Source: Nitrososphaeraceae archaeon (GTDB taxonomy: Archaea > Thermoproteota > Nitrososphaeria > Nitrososphaerales > Nitrososphaeraceae). Taken from it: a stretch of 32,486 nt of DNA. Positions 2,160 through 23,736 of the stretch are shown in pieces (within the stretch, counting starts at the first letter, position 1; each line of letters begins with the position of its first letter). The notes beneath the pieces are model-generated. The model searched no databases. It saw only the letters and a program-made list of their open reading frames with translations, and had not been told where the DNA came from. The stretch spans positions 1-32,486 of the forward strand of contig JADDOW010000102.1 in assembly GCA_016782225.1 (NCBI GenBank). The letters are read 5' to 3'. Position numbers and translations under genes: made by a program.

Positions 2160-4151
2160 TTATGATTCCTTAATATTTTCAATTGCCTCCAGTAACGCTT
2201 CATTTTCGATTGGCTTTCGAAGAAACAAATTGTTAACTATAATTTCGCTGTTACTATCGGGATTGATTTCTCCAGCAGTGAGAAAACAAACTTTCACTTT
2301 GTCGTCGATTTTTCTTATTTCGCCATAAAGTTCAAAGCCACTCATATGTGGCATTTTCACATCCAGGATTAACAGGTTGTATGTGTTTTTTTTGTATTCT
2401 TTTAGTGCATTTAACGGATTACTATATGCATTAACAACATACCCCTGTTCTTCTAAAACTTTCTTTAGTGTTATATTGATGTCAAGGTCATCATCTACTA
2501 ATAATATCTTCTTGATATCGCCATATTTTGAATGATCAAGATGAATAAACTTTGATAGACTGTTTTTTTTTGTGGTAGTGTTTTTTTGCTCCTTTGGAAT
2601 GTGGAAAAAATCAAATGATTTCAAAGGTTGTTCATCAAAGATTGGGAGAGTAAAGTAAAAGGTAACGCCTTTTCCATCTTCATTGTCTTCAAACCACAAC
2701 CTGCCCCCATGTGATTCAATAATATTCTTTGATATGAATAGCCCCAAACCGGTCCCACCGAAGGAGCCTGTAGCAAATTTTTCAAACAGTTTTTTCCTTA
2801 ATTCCGCATTTATGCCAGAACCTTGATCCCGTACACTGATAATAACAAACCTTTGTTTTTCATGTTGGTGGTTGGTTTTTTTATGCTGTAAACCATCCTC
2901 ATCATCTCCAATTCTTTTTAGATCTATATGGATAAATTTTATGCCCCCTTCTGTCTCACCGATACTGGATTTATTTGCATTGCTCAAAAGATTCGACAAT
3001 ACTTGGCTGATTCGGGTTTTGTCGGCTTCTACAATGACCGGATCATAGTTAAGGGTTTGCCCTTTGGCTTTGTAAATTAGTTTTACAGAAGGCAACAATT
3101 CCCCCACCCCCCTTATGCTGCCATTTTCAAAATCAGAAATAGTGCTTGACACAACATCACAAACATTGAACTTTTCCACCTTTAGGTTCAGGGTGTTGCT
3201 TTCTATTTTCGATACATCCAAAATGTCTTCAGCAATACGTTGCAGTTTTTTTGCATTTCTGTAGATTACTTCAGCCATCTTTCGGTTATCCGAACCTTTG
3301 TCGTTGGAAGAAACTAGCATATCGGATAACCCTATTATGGGTTGAATAGGGGTTCGTAATTCATGAGCGGCCACATTTATAAACTCCTTTTGCATCTTTC
3401 CCGATTCTTTCAGCTTTTCATTTTGAACCCTTATGTGTTCACTGCTTTTTTTTAGTTCAACATTGTATTGCAAATTAGATACGGCAAGAGCCGCAATATT
3501 GACAAAATATGCCGCATCCTTGAGTACATGTGCTATATTGTGCGCAGTATCAAAAGATGTTGTAGAGTATGACATAATTATTTGGGAAAATATATCCAAC
3601 GTGAGATAACCGACCAGTCCCTTATAGAAAACATCCTTTCTTTTGTAAAATTGCTTTTTGTAGAAAAAGAACAAAGCAACTGAGAATAATATAAGAGGAG
3701 GTATTTCATAAGGCCTATGCAAAGAGTAATCATCTATTACACTTGCGGGCAAGATCAGGAAAAGAGAGGCCCATGCAATTCCAATAGAAAAAGATGAGAG
3801 AAGTATTAGATAAAGCAGTATTCTTTTTTGTAATTTCCTGTTTGCCTTTTTTTGCTCAATTTGCTCCTCTTCTAATTGGTATAGTTCGCTTTCCCATTTT
3901 GACAAGTTGGAATATTTTATTATTGCGATGGCCAGTAGGGCGCTTAGGAATATCCTTCCTGCAAACCAGGTTTGCGGAAGAAAATATTTAATGAACATGG
4001 GATCGCTGATTGCAATATAGGAAATTATTACGTGCAGCAAATCAATCAGGGCACTAACAAGAAAACCCATTCCTATGAAAAGACTAAAGACATCATTTAA
4101 CATACGGGCACGCGAAATATAATAAAACGACAAAACCACACCAAATACCAC
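2160..4151 (-). CDS. Membrane hybrid sensor histidine kinase with receiver domain
   Basis: The order is a multi-helix membrane sensor (about 1-230, MASE3-like, with ALIDLLH), HisKA with the phospho-acceptor in AAHELRTP (His263), HATPase_c with an N-box (LSNLLSNANKSS), G1 DQGSGI and GTGLGLFIS, then a C-terminal receiver (about 545-655) with the acidic DDD triad, phospho-Asp in LILDVKMP and the K of LRKPI. It senses an unknown cue at the membrane and phosphorylates its own receiver; no DNA-binding output is attached. The GTG used here lies inside the sensor's first helices. The same frame continues upstream as good membrane sequence but is interrupted by TAG at 4194-4196, so this is either an N-terminally truncated product or a nonsense mutant. 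The ion channel gene follows 33 bp downstream. Confidence 0.88.
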   Translation of the reverse strand: MVFGVVLSFYYISRARMLNDVFSLFIGMGFLVSALIDLLHVIISYIAISDPMFIKYFLPQTWFAGRIFLSALLAIAIIKYSNLSKWESELYQLEEEQIEQKKANRKLQKRILLYLILLSSFSIGIAWASLFLILPASVIDDYSLHRPYEIPPLILFSVALFFFYKKQFYKRKDVFYKGLVGYLTLDIFSQIIMSYSTTSFDTAHNIAHVLKDAAYFVNIAALAVSNLQYNVELKKSSEHIRVQNEKLKESGKMQKEFINVAAHELRTPIQPIIGLSDMLVSSNDKGSDNRKMAEVIYRNAKKLQRIAEDILDVSKIESNTLNLKVEKFNVCDVVSSTISDFENGSIRGVGELLPSVKLIYKAKGQTLNYDPVIVEADKTRISQVLSNLLSNANKSSIGETEGGIKFIHIDLKRIGDDEDGLQHKKTNHQHEKQRFVIISVRDQGSGINAELRKKLFEKFATGSFGGTGLGLFISKNIIESHGGRLWFEDNEDGKGVTFYFTLPIFDEQPLKSFDFFHIPKEQKNTTTKKNSLSKFIHLDHSKYGDIKKILLVDDDLDINITLKKVLEEQGYVVNAYSNPLNALKEYKKNTYNLLILDVKMPHMSGFELYGEIRKIDDKVKVCFLTAGEINPDSNSEIIVNNLFLRKPIENEALLEAIENIKES

Positions 4152-10480: not shown

Positions 10481-12223
10481 TTGATTAGATTACCCTCATC
10501 ATTTACCAAAAATCTTGGAAATGGGTTGAATAAAGGTAATCGACATATAGCAGATACTGATATGATAGAAAATCCATTAGCCAAACCCCCTCCTTTGTGG
10601 AACGAATTGTATCAGAGAGTTAAATTATTGCCATGGTGGCTAAAGTATAATGCAGGGTATACCAGGGAATCAGAACTAAAGGATAAAATAATCCATCTTG
10701 CCTCGCAAATGAATTTAGAAAAAAAATGGGTAAAAAAGATAGTTAGGCATGCCGTCTCAGAGTTCTCAAAGAAAGGTCTTGGTCAAGATTATTATGGATA
10801 CCACAACATAGATCATGAGCTAGAGGCCACATATTTTACGCTGCTTTCAGCTAAAAACCACATTAGGCAAAACAACGTAGACAAAATCTCTTTTACCATG
10901 GAAGATATAAAATATCTTTTTGTTTCAGCACTCTTCCATGATTATGACCCAGCAAAACAATTTGACAAACCAAATGAGGAATCTGTGGAATGGTTTTTAA
11001 GAAATGATCCAGTAATAATAAAGTTTATCGACATTATAGGAATTGATATAGATATTGTTATTGCCATTATATATAGAACTGCATATCCTTTCAAGGGAGA
11101 AATAGCAAAAAATGCATTGAAAAGAATTGAGGACTTGCTTTCAACCAAAGACCAATTCAAAGATAAAAAATATAATGAGACAGGTAATGACAAAGATACC
11201 AATTCAAAGGGAATTGAGCATTACATTCGTCTTGGATGGTTTTTGTCTGTATGCGAGCGCATGGCAGGATATGCGTTGGGGGACTTTGAATATGCAAATA
11301 AATTAGCCAGAAGTAATGCACATGCGTTAGGCTGGCATCCATCTGTCATAAACGAGGAGTCTGTGAAATTTTTTGATGCCATAAAACAGGAAAATGAAAT
11401 GTTACAATTTGTGTTAAAAGGGTTACCGGATAAATTAAAAGAGAATTTCTTTAACAATATAGAATCTTTTCAAAAACTTTACGAAGAGGAAAAGAAGATA
11501 AGGAGTTTGACAAAAACGAGGGAAATTAGTTTTATTTGTAAAGTCGAGAACATTGCAAATGATCATAACAATGAGAATAGAGTATCAAATCTTGATCCCG
11601 AGGTAAGAAATTGTGTCCTTAATATATATAACAAACTGCCAATCCCACTAAAGAGAGGAGAACAGCATTTTCTATCTTCGCTTTCCAATCCAAATACTAT
11701 TCTAATCACCCTTAGAATAAAAAAAGGGCAAAAATATCATCACAGCCAAAATGACTATGATGACAATAACAAGGGCAATGGGAACGAGATAGTAAATACC
11801 ATCAACATTGCAGAACAGAACAATAATGCATATGAAAATGACGCCATAGTTGGATATGTAAAGGGAGGACCGATTGAGAAGCAAAATCTAAGGCGGGGGA
11901 CATTTGATGAGAATTATGGAAAGAAAAATACGGCATATATGGAATGGATTTGTATAAAGCCAGGTTATTGGGGATCAACTGGTGGTCACCTCCTTAGAAT
12001 GAATTTTCTGATTGAAGCAAAAAAGAGAGGCTATTTATACGTAACCGGATACGTCCATAGGAATGTGATAATGAAAAGAAGAAGCAAGGGTGAGATCATA
12101 CAAATAGTGCAGAAATATAATCCAGATAAACTTGATTACTACAGAATAGACTTGAGTAAAATATCTATCAATGATATAGCCGAAGAGGAGTCAGATGAAT
12201 TTGCAATGGCAGTTTATCCATAA
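10481..12223 (+). CDS. HD-type phosphodiesterase-like domain fused to GNAT acetyltransferase
   Basis: A 580-residue protein with two enzymatic parts. The N-terminal half carries an HD metal site: YHNIDHELEA (His108, His112), ALFHDYDP (His153-Asp154) and a later ERMAGYALGDF with Asp268 as candidate last ligand. The YHN..H and HD.D spacing resembles cyclic-nucleotide phosphodiesterases more than simple HD hydrolases. Residues about 225-245 and 430-460 are Asn/Lys/Asp-rich linkers. The last 130 residues look like a GNAT fold: AYMEWICIKPGYWGSTGGHL has the acetyl-CoA pyrophosphate-loop pattern, then LIEAKKRGYLYVTGYV. Substrates are unknown. A fusion of nucleotide (or phosphate) hydrolysis with acyl transfer suggests signalling, but this is inference. 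The TTG start is supported by a TATA box at 10445. Confidence 0.75.
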   Translation: MIRLPSSFTKNLGNGLNKGNRHIADTDMIENPLAKPPPLWNELYQRVKLLPWWLKYNAGYTRESELKDKIIHLASQMNLEKKWVKKIVRHAVSEFSKKGLGQDYYGYHNIDHELEATYFTLLSAKNHIRQNNVDKISFTMEDIKYLFVSALFHDYDPAKQFDKPNEESVEWFLRNDPVIIKFIDIIGIDIDIVIAIIYRTAYPFKGEIAKNALKRIEDLLSTKDQFKDKKYNETGNDKDTNSKGIEHYIRLGWFLSVCERMAGYALGDFEYANKLARSNAHALGWHPSVINEESVKFFDAIKQENEMLQFVLKGLPDKLKENFFNNIESFQKLYEEEKKIRSLTKTREISFICKVENIANDHNNENRVSNLDPEVRNCVLNIYNKLPIPLKRGEQHFLSSLSNPNTILITLRIKKGQKYHHSQNDYDDNNKGNGNEIVNTINIAEQNNNAYENDAIVGYVKGGPIEKQNLRRGTFDENYGKKNTAYMEWICIKPGYWGSTGGHLLRMNFLIEAKKRGYLYVTGYVHRNVIMKRRSKGEIIQIVQKYNPDKLDYYRIDLSKISINDIAEEESDEFAMAVYP

Positions 12224-12911: not shown

Positions 12912-14447
12912 TCATTTACCTTTTAGAAATAACAGATAAATATATAGTAACAGCAGACAAAATAGACATACAAAAAATATATTTACAAAAGGCATAGCAG
13001 GTTGAAAAGAAACAATATTGGCATCATAAGAAGAATTGGCAATTGTTTGATTCGCCTGCATAAACATTCCTGCGAAAGCAGGGCCAATAGCAGATCCCAT
13101 GAATCGAAACAGCGTATTAATTCCAAATGATATGCCAATATATTCAAAGGGTGTAGAGGCGGTTTTGATATTGATTTGACCCACATTTAATAATGATAAG
13201 CCGGGTCCTAATATTGCAATGTTTACTGCAATCTGTAAAGAATCATAGTGCAATATTAAAATACTGATAAAGCCCACAGTTGTCAGCACGCTGCCTGTCA
13301 AAATTACCTTAGAGGATCCGATTTTTGTTATTATAAAGCCTGACGTGGGTCCAAATATCAAGATATGATTGAGAATGGAATTGTCATATATGCAACATCT
13401 AACGCGTTTCCTCCAATGCCGATTGGTAATGGGGTTCTAACCAGTACTGGTATAGACTGAAAAATACCAAATGTAAATATTCCCATATTAGAACAATGAC
13501 ATTTGTCAATAATATTGGCTTTAATGTTATTGACTTGAGGTCGATAAGAGGTTTCGGAGATTTCCTTTCAACAACTATAAAAACAAAAATAGATATAATA
13601 CTTGTTTCAAAAAAGGAGATTTGAGCTACTGGTGCATTTATTGTATCCGATGGGTTTCTTTCGGACTCTACAAGTGTAAGTTCAAGTATGAATGAGGTGA
13701 TTGCTACGGATAGGACAAAAGTGCCCTTGACGTCAACATCCGACGAAAAGTTTGGATGAACACCTCTTTTTTGCATATGTTTATTTGTCGTTGGAGGCGA
13801 TAATGAGTTTCTTACCCTATTTCCAATAGGGGTGTCATGTTCAGTATTTACAAAATATTTTATTATAATGGTTACAATAACTTCAAATGAAAGTATAGAG
13901 ATGAAGGTCATCCTCCATCCAAAAATATGCGTTATGTTACAGCCGACAATTAACCAAAGTATTCCCCCAAAAGCAAACATAGAAGCCAAAGTCCCTTGAC
14001 CGATTGAAATTCCATCTTTTGGAAACTGGGATTGGACAATAGTGAAGACAATGGGAAGATGGACATCCCAATTCCTTGGACAATTCGAAACACAATCAGC
14101 ATAAAAACATTATCAGCTAATGCACCACCAATGATACCTGTTATGTAAATTGCTAAAACGATCAAAAGAATCAACTTTCGTCCATAAATATCTGATAACT
14201 TTGACACCATTGTTGTCGATATTAAGGCAGAAATAATAAAAGATGTAAAAACCCAAGATGATGCACTATAAGTCAAACCAAATTCTCTTATATCAGGTAT
14301 GGCAGGAAGCGGCATTGTTTCTACATACATTACCATAATAGATATTGAGATAAGAATCAGAAGGAGCCCCCAAGGAGAATTTGTGGCATTTCCTTGATTT
14401 GAATTCATGTTTGGCACATTATTTTTTTGTTTTTTTATTAGAGTCAT
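12912..14447 (-). pseudogene. MFS drug exporter (DHA2/EmrB-like), three frameshifts
   Basis: Three consecutive frames together spell one major-facilitator transporter. 14447-14055 has the first helices with the motif-A loop SKLSDIYGRK and the RIVQGIG segment. About 14055-13490 continues from IVFTIVQSQFPKDGISIGQG. About 13490-13345 reads NMGIFTFGIFQSIPVLVRTP, and the last frame reads ILIFGPTSGFIITKIGSSKV to the end. Each junction is explained by one missing base (near 14053-14055, 13488-13493 and 13340-13350). A proton-driven multidrug exporter is the likely ancestor, with about 14 helices expected. No single frame can make an intact protein. Either the gene is dead or the sequence has clustered single-base deletions. 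Confidence 0.85.
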
Positions 14448-16928: not shown

Positions 16929-17612
16929 TCATTTCGTTTTTACGGTGACTTCCTCACCGTAACCTATCGGAACAGTCACAGAAGAAACAGACTCATTGTT
17001 TCTTACATATTTAACAAATTTAGACATAACTAATCGATACTCTTCAGGAGATAAAATATTGTCCGTTACAATCAATCCCCCTTTTTTTAACAACGGTAAA
17101 GACATATCAAAATAATTGGTTAAATTGTCTTTGTCAGCATCAAAAAAAATAAAGTCAAATAAATCGCATCCACCATTTGAATTGGCGTTATGACTATCCA
17201 ATAGCTGAGGAAGGATATCAACAGCATTGCCTTCTACAACATTAACCATCTCAAAGACGCCTGCGTCAATAAAATTCTTCTGTGCCCTCATGATTTTTGA
17301 TCTGTCATTATCAATAGTGATAATGTTTTTTTTTGTTTTATGCGGCATACCATTTTCATTTTGAGACAAAGCAAGCGCAAACCACAAGGTAGAATAACCA
17401 ACAGAGGTGCCTATTTCCAGAACATTATTCGCATTCATGGATGTTAGCAATATGCTGAGAAATTTTCCGGTGTCTTCCGTAATTGCGAGCATCAAGTCTT
17501 TTTCAGCAACATTTTCCGCCCCCATCCGTTCAAGCCTGGACTGCTCCCCCAATCTCTCCAATACCCCAATAATTTTAGATTTTTTGTTGATATTGTTATT
17601 ATTATAATTCAC
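16929..17612 (-). CDS. SAM-dependent O-methyltransferase (COMT-like, Methyltransf_3)
   Basis: A 227-residue class I methyltransferase. Motif I is VLEIGTSVGYSTLW (about 64-77), the ribose-binding acid is in ITIDND (about 98-103), and motif IV is FIFFDADKDNLTNYF, which in this family supplies the divalent-metal ligands. The N-terminal GAEN...EDTGKFLSILL segment is typical of the cation-dependent catechol/caffeoyl-CoA O-methyltransferase family. It likely methylates a small diol or phenol-like metabolite in the cytoplasm; the substrate is unknown. The start is GTG, and a TATA box (ATATAAAGGC, 17631-17640) sits 25 bp upstream, giving a leaderless transcript. The length is usual for the family. 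Confidence 0.92.
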   Translation of the reverse strand: MNYNNNNINKKSKIIGVLERLGEQSRLERMGAENVAEKDLMLAITEDTGKFLSILLTSMNANNVLEIGTSVGYSTLWFALALSQNENGMPHKTKKNIITIDNDRSKIMRAQKNFIDAGVFEMVNVVEGNAVDILPQLLDSHNANSNGGCDLFDFIFFDADKDNLTNYFDMSLPLLKKGGLIVTDNILSPEEYRLVMSKFVKYVRNNESVSSVTVPIGYGEEVTVKTK

Positions 17613-17640: not shown

Positions 17641-18256
17641 GGTTATTAATGCATTTAGGGCGCCAATTCAATCATACACTGCTATTTTGTGGTATGAACA
17701 TCAATTCATTTATTCAGGTTGAAACCAAAATCAATTTACTTTTTATAGTAAACGATAGGCAATTTCAACCCATTCAATAGAACACAATATAAAAATTTAA
17801 ACAACAATGTGCATAGGCCAAATTTGCAGATATTGACGCCATGTTTTTCCGTGATTTCATGATTATCTGACAACATGATCTTTGACGATTAATCTTCCAC
17901 TGCCTCAATTATCAGGCATTCAATTTGAATATTTTCAAATACCATAGAGTATTTTTTAAGTTAAACATTAAACATGATTGCGCAACACAATCCATCATAC
18001 TTTTGCAAAATCATAAATTCAAGCATCGCTAATTTTGATTACACATACAAAAAAAAGTAACAATCATTTCAATGAAAAAAAGATCAGTTCATAACTTTAT
18101 GGAATCGCACATTGGAAACCAATATAAAAAAATCATCCGATCTCACAGATTTAGGATCAGTTCGCCCAATTTTAGAAAAAGATGATGATGACAAAAACAA
18201 AACAGAACAGAAAAGAACATACCCACAGGCATTCAAATATGATTTGAAAGGTCAAG
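17641..18256. other. Spacer, no supported gene
   Basis: AT-rich. A 65-residue TTG-started frame covers 18112-18309 and overlaps the better supported gene at 18287; I do not call it. Confidence 0.4.
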
Positions 18257-18266
18257 TTTATTATTT
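18257..18266 (+). promoter_or_regulatory. TATA box for the 18287 gene
   Basis: TTTATTATTT is centred about 25 bp before the ATG at 18287. Confidence 0.4.
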
Positions 18267-18286
18267 TCATTTGACTATACATCATA

Positions 18287-18433
18287 ATGGGTGCAGTATA
18301 CAAACCTAAGGATTTGTCTAAAAGATACAGGAAAAAAATTCCTGATGAACTAGCAAAAGATATAGTTCCCGGCGCAAATGATGATGGTGATGAGCCAACT
18401 TTAAATGAAACGGATAGAGAAAACGATCAATAA
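18287..18433 (+). CDS. Tiny charged protein, 48 residues
   Basis: ATG to TAA encodes 48 residues. The first half is basic (KPKDLSKRYRKKIP) and the second half is acidic (DDGDEPTLNETDREND). No family is recognised. A TATA-like box sits at leaderless distance, and the base/acid division is not typical of random AT-rich frames, so I consider it likely real. It lies convergent to the SQR-like gene. Confidence 0.45.
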   Translation: MGAVYKPKDLSKRYRKKIPDELAKDIVPGANDDGDEPTLNETDRENDQ

Positions 18434-18553
18434 GATATAGTTCTTCCAATCCACCATCAATCACCACGAAATCCCTACAATTTTATAATTTTATGATTCA
18501 CAATATATTTAGACACATTTATTGCAAAAGTACGAAAAAAAGATTTACCCCCT

Positions 18554-19738
18554 TCATGGTAAAGGCAACAGCCAATCTTTTACTCTGGTTTTTTCAAAAT
18601 CAATTTTTTTTCTGTATGAACCTTCAGAAGGCGGGTAAAGGCTTGTAACCGGACCTTCTTTATTATAAAAGTCTGTGTCTATATATCCGGCTTTGCTTTC
18701 TCCTGTTTCCATAAAGCAAAAGCCTTTTCCATCAAATTTAGAATTGCATGCCTTACCTCTAATCTGGCCTACAATTTGCTCGGAAACTACCTTTGCCTGT
18801 CCCTCAGCAAATATCCCTGCCTTTGGGATTGATACCGCCTGATTAACTTTGATTTCCGTTATATCCCCTATTGCAAAAACATTTTCATGTTCTGTCCTCA
18901 AGGTAAACCTGTCAGCATTTATCCAATTTTGTCCATCCTTAATAAACCCAGAACGCTTTGCCACCAGTGGTGAAACATGTGGCGGGATACCTATCAACAG
19001 GCTGTAATCCACACATTCTTTTCCGTTGCCAGCACACTCAAATTCTAGGGAATTTCTATCAGTTACAGTTTTCAGTTTATGTGATGGATGGAAATATATA
19101 TGGTTTTTATCAAGCAAATCAATCACATCCTGGCTTACCCTTGGTCCTGCGACGGGCAATGAAATTGATGCAGGACAATACACATCAATGCCAACATTAT
19201 TTCTTGTCCCGTTTTTTACCAAAATATCACTTATGAGTAAAGATGCCTCATATGGTGCTGGCGGGCATTTGTATGGATAGCTTGTTATGCATATCGCTAT
19301 CCTTCCCTGTTTCAATGCAAGGATCTCTTTTCTCAATTGTGGAATATGCTCAACCTCATAGAGGTTGAATCCACCATTTTCTACAAAACCGTGGATTTTC
19401 TCAGGGGCGTATTCTGTTCCTAATGCTATTACTAAATAATCATATTCATGGTTTTGGCTTACTGTTGTAATTACATTCTCTGCAGGGTTTATTGATATTA
19501 TTTCATCCTGTAAAAATGAAATCCCCTTGCTCTTTAGGTTGCTTAGTGGAGTTTTAGAACCCTCAATTGTTCTTTTCCCATTTAATATCCAGAGGTTTAC
19601 AAAACCCATCATAAAATAGTCTTTCTTATCAAAAACTTCAATTTGATGCTCTGAAGAAAGACTCTCTCGCAACAGGTTTGCACAAGCCAATCCTCCAAAC
19701 CCTGCACCAAGAATTACGATGCGTTTTCCCTTTGACAA
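18554..19738 (-). CDS. FAD-dependent pyridine nucleotide-disulfide oxidoreductase, SQR/FCSD-like
   Basis: A 394-residue flavoprotein. The FAD-binding GAGFGGLACA is at 11-20, a second Rossmann-associated ATG-like motif is in VIALGTEY (103-110), and the flavin-proximal VFAIGDITEI is at 287-296. PYKCPPAPYE places Cys158 where sulfide:quinone oxidoreductases and flavocytochrome c sulfide dehydrogenases hold a redox Cys. GFCFMETG gives Cys341 as the possible partner. A quinone- or sulfide-linked oxidation at the membrane face is plausible but not proven; other NDH-2-like roles remain possible. The start is TTG, with AAGGAT 7 bp upstream as a possible ribosome site. It is a single gene. Confidence 0.85.
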   Translation of the reverse strand: MSKGKRIVILGAGFGGLACANLLRESLSSEHQIEVFDKKDYFMMGFVNLWILNGKRTIEGSKTPLSNLKSKGISFLQDEIISINPAENVITTVSQNHEYDYLVIALGTEYAPEKIHGFVENGGFNLYEVEHIPQLRKEILALKQGRIAICITSYPYKCPPAPYEASLLISDILVKNGTRNNVGIDVYCPASISLPVAGPRVSQDVIDLLDKNHIYFHPSHKLKTVTDRNSLEFECAGNGKECVDYSLLIGIPPHVSPLVAKRSGFIKDGQNWINADRFTLRTEHENVFAIGDITEIKVNQAVSIPKAGIFAEGQAKVVSEQIVGQIRGKACNSKFDGKGFCFMETGESKAGYIDTDFYNKEGPVTSLYPPSEGSYRKKIDFEKTRVKDWLLPLP

Positions 19739-20568
19739 TATAATCCTTAATCACAAATAGAGGAGGCCTGAGTAATTAGCATATCCCTTTCTGTTTTCAT
19801 TTGTGGATTACCTTCGGTTTGAATGGCCAATATCAATCTTTTTATAACAAATAATACAATATTCCATACTGTAGTGCATCATATCCAGAAAAGAGAGAAA
19901 AGAATCGTAGATTGATGCAATGTATTACCTATGTATTGCCTGTACCCTTTTATATCTAATCGTATTTGCGCCTTAAGCAGCAATAATCAATCCAGACGTT
20001 ATTTGCCTGAAATTATGGGAACGAGATAATGCTAATTCTATAGGATATGATGGCTACCACTAACAGAAATTCAGTCTTATGTAACAACTAAAGGACTTGT
20101 TAGACCCACCATACATGACAAAGCAGTAGGTTATGCAATAGCTAAAATGCTTAAAGAGCAAAATGTGATGTTTGTATGATTTGTTCAGTAATTAGAAATT
20201 ATCAAAGGACAAACAAAGCAAGACAACAACACACACCCATAAGAATAAAATTTAAACTCAATTTTGTTGCCAAACAAAAAAACACAAACAAGAGAGATGC
20301 ATAATACAGATTCAACAATTTATCTGAAAAGAGATTGAAATCAATATAACATTTCCCTTTTATGAAACTAACTTGACAACCAAACGATTTGTATTTGGAT
20401 ATATTCTTTTCGGATATTTGATAATCAGATACTCTACTACTAACTTCCCGTTGTTCCTCTTTATCTATTCAGTATTCTTTAGACAAAACAAAAAATAAAA
20501 CATTTTCATGATATTTGTTATTTATCATCGATTAAATGTAGAGTAACAAAATGGATATGGGTCAAGTC
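19739..20568. other. Long spacer with a possible gene fragment at 20054-20179
   Basis: Mostly AT-rich and stop-filled. From 20054 to 20179 the plus strand reads LPLTEIQSYVTTKGLVRPT and then IHDKAVGYAIAKMLKEQNV before a TGA. It has protein-like composition but lacks an in-frame start near its beginning, so it is probably the tail of a dead or unrecognised small gene. Confidence 0.35.
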
Positions 20569-20970
20569 TTATTTGGTTAGGTTTATCTTTGGATTTTTGA
20601 AATCATTGTCTTTTAGATTGACTCTTGTTTGGATTTTTTTTATCCCATTTTCATCTTCCAAAGACAGCCAATGATTTAACAATGCTCTTCTCTTATCCTT
20701 TAAAATTATTTCAACCCTTATATTGAATTCCCCCCATCCTCTTGATACTAATAGGAAATTACTTTCCCTATCTACAACCTTTATTACATTTTGTGAAAAT
20801 GTTGGATGAAGATAATATATTACAGATTCAATATAATCCATAAAGTTAACAGGGATGGACTTTACCGAAATTGTCCATAAAAACCATGCGGTGGAATTGT
20901 CATTGCTGCTATCGTCAGCAACCCTCTCGCTAGTATTCTCTATAATCATTGTTACAGTTAAATCCTTCAA
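20569..20970 (-). CDS. Stand-alone YEATS-domain protein
   Basis: A 133-residue protein that is almost entirely one YEATS-like immunoglobulin fold. WFLWTISVK (29-37) matches the entry strand. VIYYLHPTF (50-58) matches the eukaryotic V-x-F-x-LH-x-S/T-F/Y segment. SRGWGEFNIRVEI (76-88) matches GWGEFEI of GAS41/Yaf9. NHWLSLED ends the domain. By alignment with AF9 and GAS41, the acyl-lysine pocket residues are present: His55, Thr57, Phe58, Gly78, Trp79, Gly80 and Phe82. In eukaryotes this domain reads acetyl- or crotonyl-lysine on histones; bacterial YEATS proteins are poorly understood. The TTG start is supported by TATTAAATAG about 28 bp upstream; Met8 is the alternative. It is a single gene with no operon partner. 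Confidence 0.8.
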   Translation of the reverse strand: MKDLTVTMIIENTSERVADDSSNDNSTAWFLWTISVKSIPVNFMDYIESVIYYLHPTFSQNVIKVVDRESNFLLVSRGWGEFNIRVEIILKDKRRALLNHWLSLEDENGIKKIQTRVNLKDNDFKNPKINLTK

Positions 20971-21405
20971 TGCAACTAGAGTATTAAGATACTATTTAAT
21001 ACTACCACATTTTAGATATTTTATCAGTTTTGTTTTCAAATTTTAACAGGCGATAGTTGGATTTGTGTGCTGTCCTAGAGTACATCAAACAGAAAATACA
21101 GGTGGCTTTTGATGTATATGTTCCATTTCCTTTTAAATTACATTATGGAAACCTAAACAGATTTTCGCCATAGCAAATTCAAAAAGTCTGATTTCTTGAA
21201 AAAGGTGACAGAAAAAAATTGTTAAGAAACCTTTGCCTTTGTTAACATTATCGGAGTGCAAACCAGCTCTTAGTGGTTATAGTGGATGTTTTAGCCCATT
21301 AAAAGCATTGTAGACCTTATTGCACTTGCAATGAAAGATACATCCCAACAGTGTTTAAATTAGAAAAGTTTGGATTTGCTTTCCCAACACCCTTAACTCT
21401 TTTGT
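20971..21405. other. Spacer without recognisable features
   Basis: No gene is supported. It contains the YEATS promoter (TATTAAATAG-like, about 20993-21003). Confidence 0.4.
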
Positions 21406-21828
21406 TTATTTCTTGATTTGGCCAAAGTAGGCCTTGGTATTGGGTTTTGAGAGATAGTATAAACTTAGTATATCTTTGCCTATTGTGTATAGTATGGGGA
21501 TAAGGCTGTATGCCCCATATAGATGGAGTGAAAAAGGAAAAGGCATGATGGTGTTGATCCCAATCACCGAAAACACAACTAACGTAATTTCAGAATATAT
21601 CAATACTATCGTTATGTTTCGAGCCCAGTTATTTCCTTTCCAAAGACCAAAACCCAAAGCAATAGAAACAGTCGCAAAAGGCGTCCCGACAATAAACAGT
21701 ATCAGACCAAACACCCACCACTCTCCAAATAACCAAAAGCTAGCTACCGAGATGACTTCAAAGACAGCACCATATAAAATCATTAGGATAGATAGAACAG
21801 AGATGCCAATTGGTCTTTTTTTATGCAA
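21406..21828 (-). CDS. Four-helix membrane protein of unknown function
   Basis: A 140-residue protein beginning with a short basic stretch (MHKKRPIG) and containing four hydrophobic segments at about 8-33, 37-62, 68-93 and 102-128. The RPIGISVLSILMILYG opening is shared by many small archaeal and bacterial membrane proteins of unknown role, as I recall them. The tail is polar and Lys-rich. No catalytic motif is visible. The initiator is ATG. The opposite-strand frame over the same stretch is a shadow. Confidence 0.65.
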   Translation of the reverse strand: MHKKRPIGISVLSILMILYGAVFEVISVASFWLFGEWWVFGLILFIVGTPFATVSIALGFGLWKGNNWARNITIVLIYSEITLVVFSVIGINTIMPFPFSLHLYGAYSLIPILYTIGKDILSLYYLSKPNTKAYFGQIKK

Positions 21829-21847
21829 TGAACCTTAAATTAACAAT

Positions 21848-22084
21848 TTAGTGGTATAAATTCCTAGTTAAAGTGGAAGCAAACAGACGGGCTAATTTGT
21901 CATAGTTAACGGCTATAGACAGCAGCAGCAGTGGCAGCAGCATTTGTGTAGAATGAGTTTTGCTTTCGATTCTTTTAATGCCTAAAACCTCCCCTGGAGT
22001 CTTTGAAATCCTAAGGCATTTCTTTCTATTGCCCCTACCAGTTCTTCCCTTTTTTAGGGTGTCGCGCAATTTCTTCCAGCATTA
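21848..22084 (-). pseudogene. Possible decayed small gene, unidentified
   Basis: From the ATG at 22084, MLEEIARHPKKG runs to a stop. The neighbouring frame then reads ELVGAIERNALGFQRLQGRF, then a stop, followed in another frame by IKRIESKTHS. The pieces look like one helical protein with two breaks, but I do not recognise it. A GCAGCAGCAGTGGCAGCAGC run at about 21918 is a simple repeat at the 3' end. Confidence 0.25.
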
Positions 22085-22400
22085 CGGCAAATAGCACAAA
22101 CTCTATTAAGAAATTGGTGATTACCAGTGTTTAGTATTTGTACCGTCCAATGGAAACACCAATCCAAAATCTGGATTTGGGAATAACAACATTTAAACTC
22201 GACATTAAACATGAATAAATATACGCATCATCATGGTTTATAGTCACAATAAAAGATTCAATCAAAATAAAACTGTATTTTTCTTTGAGTAATGTAAATG
22301 ATGCCGTTGAAAGGTTGTACATAATGCTCATACACATATACATGGATGTTTCCCAAGTCGATTGTTACATCATGGCCACTTTGCAAAACGAAAGTGTTCC
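22085..22400. other. Spacer without supported gene
   Basis: Only short frames of unconvincing composition on both strands. Confidence 0.4.
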
Positions 22401-23219
22401 CTAATCAAAAACAAAATTAGGGATATCCAATTTGGGGCCTGGAAATTCAGGTTTCATGTTTTCCAGTTTATTGGCTACAATTTGTGAAACAGCCAAATTT
22501 CTGAAATGTTTTGCATTTGCAGGGATTATATACCATGGGGCCCATTCGGTATTGCATAGCCTCAATGCGTCTTCGTATGCCTCCATATATCTATCCCAAT
22601 TTCTATGGTTAACAAAATCACTTTCCGAAATTTTCCAATGTTTTGTTGAATCCTTTAACCTATCCTGAAGTCTCTTTTTCTGCTCATCTCTGCTGATGTG
22701 CAAAAAGAATTTTAATATAGTGACTTGATTCTCAAACAAGTATCGCTCAAAATCATTTATCTGCCTATACCTCAAAATAATATCGCTTTTTGAGATAAAA
22801 CCATCAACGCGAACGCCAATCACATCCTCATAATGAGAGCGATTGAAGATAGCAATATGGCCTTTGGGAGGGATTGATTTATGAACACGCCAAAGATAGT
22901 CATGCGAGTGCTCCTCTTCGGATGGAACCTTAAATGACTTTACGTAACAACTTTGGGGGTTTAGGGCACCAACAACATTGCGGACTGTACCATCTTTCCC
23001 AGAAGTGTCCATGCCCTGCAGTATAATCAAAAGAGACCTGCTGTTTTCTGCAAAAAGTCTGTATTGTAGTTCAGACAAATGCTTTAAAATACAGGGCAAC
23101 TCCGTCTCCACATCTTTTTTGCTTTTACCGAAATCCGTATCTGGATCCCAATCCCTTAATCTCAAAATGCTTTTGGATTCTTTATCATGTTTTAGCAATA
23201 GTTTCTGACTTAGATCCAT
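22401..23219 (-). CDS. ppk2: Polyphosphate kinase 2 family protein
   Basis: A 272-residue single-domain PPK2. The P-loop is GMDTSGKDG (69-77). The lid and Walker B region includes HDYLWRVHKSIPPKGHIAIF and NRSHYEDV (126-133). The family's NFERYL-like INDFERYLFENQ and the WKISESDF, WAPWYIIPAN and FRNLAV segments follow. PPK2 enzymes transfer phosphate between polyphosphate and nucleotides, in either direction depending on the subclass, in the cytoplasm. The single-domain length suggests a nucleoside mono- or diphosphate kinase using polyphosphate. A TTG six codons upstream (23237) is possible, but a TATA-like CATTAAAA (23245-23252) lies 30 bp before the ATG at 23219 and favours the ATG. It is a single gene. 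Confidence 0.93.
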   Translation of the reverse strand: MDLSQKLLLKHDKESKSILRLRDWDPDTDFGKSKKDVETELPCILKHLSELQYRLFAENSRSLLIILQGMDTSGKDGTVRNVVGALNPQSCYVKSFKVPSEEEHSHDYLWRVHKSIPPKGHIAIFNRSHYEDVIGVRVDGFISKSDIILRYRQINDFERYLFENQVTILKFFLHISRDEQKKRLQDRLKDSTKHWKISESDFVNHRNWDRYMEAYEDALRLCNTEWAPWYIIPANAKHFRNLAVSQIVANKLENMKPEFPGPKLDIPNFVFD

Positions 23220-23244
23220 TGATAATTTAACAATCAAAACCAGT

Positions 23245-23252
23245 CATTAAAA
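23245..23252 (-). promoter_or_regulatory. TATA box for the PPK2 gene
   Basis: TTTTAATG on the minus strand is centred 30 bp before the ATG at 23219. This decides between the ATG and the TTG at 23237, which would be only 12 bp away. Confidence 0.4.
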
Positions 23253-23454
23253 TCAATAACTTTGCTGTTGCCGCCAATCAGCATATCCAAAACTTAAAAA
23301 AAACAAGAATGCAAATTGCAGATTTACCAAAACAACAAATTTCTTTTTAGAAAAACCTGCAACAAAAACTAAAAGATAAGGTAGGAGTTCACCATTTTTA
23401 GGCCACGTGCTGTTTTAATGTGTGGTATCCTACCACAATCTTTCTTATGTCACT

Positions 23455-23736
23455 TTAGTTTTTTTTTCTGTTTCTCATACATTCCTTTAGGTATTTGAAC
23501 AGCACAACCCATGTCGTAGCTCTGACATTTCCCTCTATTTTGTGCCCCAAGAGAAATAAGGCGATTGCCACCACAAATAAAAATAAACTAGTGTATGGAT
23601 TCACATTTGTACTTGAAAGGCTACCTGAGATCACCAATACTGCTACAACATACAATAACAATCCAATAACATGCAGTATTCTATTGGCCGGATGTCTGTG
23701 GGTGTTTTTAATAGCCTTTAACAAACTAAATCTCAT
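23455..23736 (-). CDS. Small membrane protein, DUF962/Mpo1-like
   Basis: A 93-residue protein with NTHRHPANRILHVIGLLLY near the N-terminus, two hydrophobic segments (about 20-40 and 48-66) and FLLGHKIEGN (about 61-70). The paired H..P.NR..H..G and GH..EGN patterns resemble the DUF962/Mpo1 family, whose yeast member is an Fe-dependent dioxygenase of 2-hydroxy fatty acids. It is about the size of the bacterial members. The assignment rests on motif resemblance only. A basic tail (MRNRKKN) is consistent with the positive-inside rule. It is a single gene upstream of PPK2 on the minus strand, with 200 bp between them. Confidence 0.5.
   Translation of the reverse strand: MRFSLLKAIKNTHRHPANRILHVIGLLLYVVAVLVISGSLSSTNVNPYTSLFLFVVAIALFLLGHKIEGNVRATTWVVLFKYLKECMRNRKKN

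Follow-up and report, generated by a model that had tools for sequence, protein, structure and literature searches.

A single-domain pYEATS protein with a likely acyl-lysine pocket in a Nitrososphaeraceae archaeon

Domains of the prokaryotic YEATS family, pYEATS, have been linked in print to conflict systems. The name is used by Pfam (PF20305) and by a plasmid annotation; no paper using the term was found in our literature search, and in the available text of an eLife 2020 paper on conflict systems, PMC6393860, PMC7289017, and PMC11459464, "Yeats" is the name of an author. Human YEATS2, a subunit of the ATAC complex (PMC9329655, excerpted text), holds an H3K27ac peptide with residues that include H259, S261, Y262, W282, G283, E284, F285, and Y313; Y262 and W282 form its aromatic sandwich, and their alanine mutants are reported to abolish binding completely (PMC5651844, excerpted text). 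F28 is described as a cage residue of AF9 (PMC9329655). For archaea, the accessible part of a 2018 report describes HeimC3_47440, a YEATS protein of Heimdallarchaeota LC_3 with a strictly conserved modified-lysine site and YEATS2 as its closest structure, and a homologue in Bathyarchaeota (PMC6136690). Whether acyl-lysine readers exist in bacteria is posed as a question in a review of bacterial lysine acylation, which in its accessible passages leaves the matter open (PMC8556138). No study of the binding of an archaeal YEATS protein was recognised in the literature searched, as far as its text was available. Here, we describe a pYEATS protein encoded in a 32,486-nucleotide stretch of a Nitrososphaeraceae genome (the window). 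The features concerned are as follows.

20569 to 20970, minus strand: YEATS gene, a stand-alone pYEATS of 133 aa with a TTG start (Pfam PF20305 and PF03366, AlphaFold2 model, fold matches)
20797 to 20811, minus strand: LHPTF segment (L54 to F58) with pocket residues H55, T57, and F58, aligned to YEATS2 H259, S261, and Y262
20725 to 20739, minus strand: GWGEF segment (G78 to F82) with pocket residues W79, G80, E81, and F82, aligned to YEATS2 W282, G283, E284, and F285
20993 to 21000, minus strand: TATA-like attaaata, 23 to 30 nt upstream of the TTG, read in the sequence as a putative promoter
18554 to 19738, minus strand: downstream neighbour, an SQR-like FAD oxidoreductase 830 bp away (NCBIfam, below cut-off)
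21406 to 21828, minus strand: upstream neighbour, a 140-aa membrane protein 435 bp away with three TM-like stretches

A sequence-only reading had claimed a stand-alone YEATS domain at this gene and had proposed a profile search and a structure prediction as checks. The domain proved real: the protein matched pYEATS PF20305 over profile positions 1 to 72 of 73 (71.6 bits, E 4.9e-20) and, more weakly, YEATS PF03366 (52.1 bits, E 6.3e-14), both above the curated Pfam cut-offs of 26.9 and 22 bits. The pYEATS profile matched none of 14 control genomes and is therefore not promiscuous there. NCBIfam gave zero matches for the protein, and Pfam recognised no second domain in it. The 133-aa open reading frame has an alternative start, an ATG eight codons in. 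The top sequence match in the PDB was human YEATS2 (E 3.7e-11), followed by yeast Yaf9 (E 4.9e-6), GAS41, Taf14, and, weakly, AF9; a four-sequence profile raised these matches (Yaf9, E 9.3e-12) and brought in ENL. Pairwise scores ranked an Anaerolineales pYEATS (38% identity, 63.9 bits) above YEATS2 (31%, 54.7 bits) and Yaf9 (31%, 33.5 bits). A 13-row tree, tried for placing the protein between pYEATS and eukaryotic YEATS, had one of its 10 inner branches starred, nine open, and five long rows; given this lack of resolution, no origin is drawn.

The structure prediction agreed with the profiles. AlphaFold2, run on a four-sequence alignment, returned an eight-stranded model of middling quality (mean pLDDT, 75.0; pTM, 0.70; the remaining four models, 66.3 to 68.6 mean pLDDT). 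Foldseek ranked YEATS2 in complex with H3K27cr first for this model (E 4.8e-7); its best 50 matches were YEATS-domain entries or YEATS-containing complexes. VIA, a second aligner that re-examines Foldseek's own matches, aligned 121 residues of the model with the same YEATS2 chain (Z 13.3; rmsd, 3.2; 26% identity), and its best 50 matches were YEATS domains. Since the fold alignments cover model residues 1 to 122, the protein amounts to one whole YEATS domain with a short tail, which bears out the stand-alone state claimed for it. We regard its identity as a complete single-domain member of the pYEATS family as close to certain.

The pocket residues named in the earlier reading (H55, T57, F58, W79, G80, and F82) are all in place, and by alignment seven of the eight named YEATS2 contact residues are identical or conservatively replaced. 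Yaf9 has H-T-Y-W-G-E-F at the aligned columns. The alignment and the predicted fold together place these residues as a probable cluster in space. For YEATS2 Y313 and AF9 F28, no aromatic counterpart was evident by eye, the loops there being poorly aligned, so that part of the pocket or of the peptide surface may differ from those of YEATS2 and AF9. On the residues and the model, we consider acyl-lysine binding by the window protein likely.

Eleven prokaryotic domains were compared at these positions, and seven kept the pocket as H-T-F-W-G-(E/D)-F: the window protein, its orthologue in a genome of the same genus (G001), both Anaerolineales proteins, G155, G053, and a Stanieria protein. In G053, the E is replaced by D, and an extra residue follows the His. 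The pocket residues were lost in the other four (G036, G280, G032, and G986), which means that acyl reading need not be general among pYEATS domains. A twelfth match, G973, was left out of the count because it lies below the cut-off and antisense to a 372-aa open reading frame, which by eye resembles the DUF763 protein of the window.

Against the systems described so far, the window protein shares its seven pocket residues with the Anaerolineales, G155, and Stanieria members of pYEATS, whereas several relatives have TIR, DUF4062, or TPR/caspase domains fused to them or next to them, or come after a likely membrane segment; the window protein is a single soluble domain. YEATS2 (PDB 5iql and 5xnv) is its top match in both fold and sequence, yet the two are 26% identical over the aligned fold, Y313 is the contact without evident counterpart, and YEATS2 works within the ATAC complex. 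HeimC3_47440, compared by description, is likewise an archaeal YEATS protein with a conserved site; unlike the present one, it comes from another lineage and is discussed, in the text available, together with tailed histones (PMC6136690). The earlier view of YEATS as a module of eukaryotic chromatin only is not supported, in view of Pfam's prokaryotic family, the bacterial pockets, and that 2018 archaeal report. Because of the report and the Pfam family, the window protein is not the first archaeal YEATS, and prokaryotic YEATS proteins were already known.

The gene is accessory and patchily distributed. A protein search of 101 related genomes gave a match in four, the host genome (G000) included. 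Family matches occurred in 7 of 400 genomes of the host's class (6 above cut-off), in 3 of 398 genomes in an even draw of the host's phylum, in 2 of 256 genomes of G155's class (both already counted in the phylum draw), and in 1 of 301 genomes of the phylum to which the Anaerolineales locus L009 belongs, namely L009's own genome. Phage records held no relative of the window protein, viral contigs held none of the L009 pYEATS domain, and plasmid records held one relative of the window protein, that of Stanieria. The host belongs to the Nitrososphaeraceae, which are ammonia oxidisers. Of the 15 genomes in the host's genus, two (G000 and G001) carry the whole gene, and G010 has a 5' fragment of it. 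That fragment, at a contig edge, comprises the promoter region and the first codons (83% identity over 103 bp) and is 2 bp shorter than the window sequence near the edge, which shifts the frame; a search of the G010 genome did not find the rest of the gene.

The G001 copy encodes a protein 95% identical to the window protein, with the same gene order around it. The two genes differ at 13 of 402 bases, in a 10-kb surrounding alignment that is 92.1% identical. By codon position (1/2/3), the differences number 3/4/6, with five codons silent and six changed (T5S, V65S, V66E, I113T, R116K, and V117I; pocket residues unaffected), and dN/dS is approximately 0.28 (NG86) or 0.32 (YN00). The ratio, together with an identity higher than that of the surroundings, suggests, on small numbers, a coding gene that has been kept.

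The TTG start and the upstream sequence TTAAATAGTAT are common to G000, G001, and G010, and this conserved TATA-like element and start would fit a leaderless single-gene transcript. By eye, the putative promoter is spanned by an inverted repeat (AGTATTAA...TTAATACT), which was considered and rejected; it has one mismatch in G001 and is lost in G010. Rfam at its gathering threshold gave nothing in 18000 to 23500. The downstream FAD oxidoreductase resembles type III sulfide:quinone reductase (196.7 bits against a model cut-off of 525). It has matches of at least 66% identity in 3 of the 15 genus genomes and weak ones (35% or less) in the rest, and G004 carries a match without an adjoining YEATS gene. 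The upstream 140-aa membrane protein has a 73% identical homologue in G010, and a neighbouring PPK2 has a match in all 15 genus genomes, some of them broken or in pieces. Operon partnership was rejected, no neighbour being tied to the YEATS gene beyond two close genomes among those examined. Kinship of the 140-aa protein with the 146-aa membrane protein whose gene directly precedes pYEATS in G053 was likewise dropped (best BLAST E, 0.23). Membrane proteins or segments recur near pYEATS in G053, G032, and Stanieria, which as a functional link is suggestive only.

Elsewhere in the window, three adjacent minus-strand open reading frames (12912 to 14447) each match part of the MFS transporter family and may be a single transporter gene that frameshifts or sequencing errors have split. 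A 580-aa protein (10481 to 12223), about 8 kb from the YEATS gene, has a sub-threshold GNAT acetyltransferase match near its C terminus. A hybrid histidine kinase (2160 to 4151), which has a MASE3 sensor and a receiver domain, adjoins a gene for an Ion_trans-family channel (1260 to 2126).

Several relatives of the window protein occur in conflict-type architectures. At the Anaerolineales locus L009, the pYEATS gene follows a TIR gene with a 4-bp overlap (TIR matched by Pfam; the profile match was assessed in L009 only); at L010, the overlap with the upstream TIR gene is 28 bp as called and 4 bp from a later ATG. In both gene pairs (L009:7264-8693 and L010:5369-6801), the C-terminal half of the pYEATS protein looks TIR-like by eye, and in L009 that half has no Pfam match. 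In G036, which belongs to the host's archaeal family, pYEATS ends a 1,033-aa TPR protein that also has a CHAT match below threshold. Its gene adjoins one of the caspase family and, judged by eye, one for a trypsin-like protease, so that the locus as a whole (L012:2312-7681) may be an archaeal conflict cluster. G280, from another class of the same phylum, carries a DUF4062-pYEATS fusion (L015:8091-8996) with a degenerate pocket. In G155, pYEATS lies at the end of a 313-aa protein without other Pfam match, and in G053, G032, and G986 it forms single-domain proteins, just after (G053) or just before (G032) a gene with membrane-like stretches. The Stanieria domain sits behind a likely membrane segment.

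The reading we prefer, and to which we give roughly even chances, is that the window protein consists of a single pYEATS domain, probably binds acyl-lysine on proteins other than histones, and would serve as an adaptor or sensor acting in trans. F58 and W79 as the aromatic pair, together with H55, T57, and the GEF loop, would clamp an acyl-amide, most likely that of a lysine side chain carrying an acetyl or longer acyl group on a non-histone protein. Because it has neither a second domain nor an operon partner, the protein would be mobile, recognising acylation and meeting its partner elsewhere. Lysine deacylation in the host is plausible from its two SIR2 matches and one Hist_deacetyl match, and these families are frequent in the control genomes (10 and 9 of 14, respectively), hence non-specific, so deacylation is put no higher than that. 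A narrower form, a stand-alone Nitrososphaeraceae acyl-lysine reader whose sensing of non-histone acylation is an input to stress or anti-invader responses, is offered tentatively. The company kept by the relatives suggests instead a detached sensor module of an anti-invader system, which would work like the TIR- and caspase-linked pYEATS proteins, its effector encoded elsewhere and its ligand perhaps not acyl-lysine. The best-scoring relative after G001, among 12 others compared, is the Anaerolineales pYEATS whose gene overlaps a TIR gene by 4 bp, and the TPR-pYEATS beside a caspase gene and the DUF4062-pYEATS fusion point the same way. PADLOC, however, matched neither the window protein nor the three pYEATS relatives scanned, that of L009 included, nor the L009 TIR protein, and no effector domain was recognised among the neighbouring proteins tested in the window. 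The sole PADLOC match among 10 proteins (6 from the window) was a partial one of an O-methyltransferase at 16929 to 17612 (mad2; E 1.1e-11). Since these matches are absent, a conflict role for the TIR- and TPR-linked relatives is itself something we infer. A detached conflict sensor in the window appears possible, if rather doubtful.

Reading of acylated lysines on the archaeal histone or on other nucleoid proteins would agree with the fold and pocket and with a host that has both a histone and deacetylase-family genes. The histone, however, is the sole match to PF00808 in the host genome, a 76-aa open reading frame that reads as tail-less, which argues against histone-tail reading. A gene whole in 2 of 15 genus genomes, from a family with matches in 7 of the 400 class genomes, is also unlike a core chromatin function, and the conflict-type settings of several relatives weigh on the same side. 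We consider a chromatin reader improbable; a histone tail as target is unlikely, and among the functional readings a role at histone tails has the least support. An accessory gene in decay, without present function, would account for the patchy distribution, the frame-shifted 5' end in G010 with no further gene part found there, and the loss of the pocket in 4 of 11 relatives. The two whole copies, though, resemble each other more closely than their surroundings do, with a dN/dS of approximately 0.3, and the difference in G010 is at most 20 bases away from the end of a contig, a place prone to assembly errors; we judge decay very unlikely.

Soluble, 133 aa long, and equipped with the sandwich residues, this archaeal protein is a simple test object for acyl-lysine reading. 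A failure to bind acyl-lysine would suggest that prokaryotes keep the pocket for a different ligand. Binding, if true, would place YEATS reading outside eukaryotic chromatin and, if true together with the bacterial pocket-bearing pYEATS domains, would mean that acyl-lysine reading by YEATS is common to bacteria, archaea, and eukaryotes and predates its use on histone tails.
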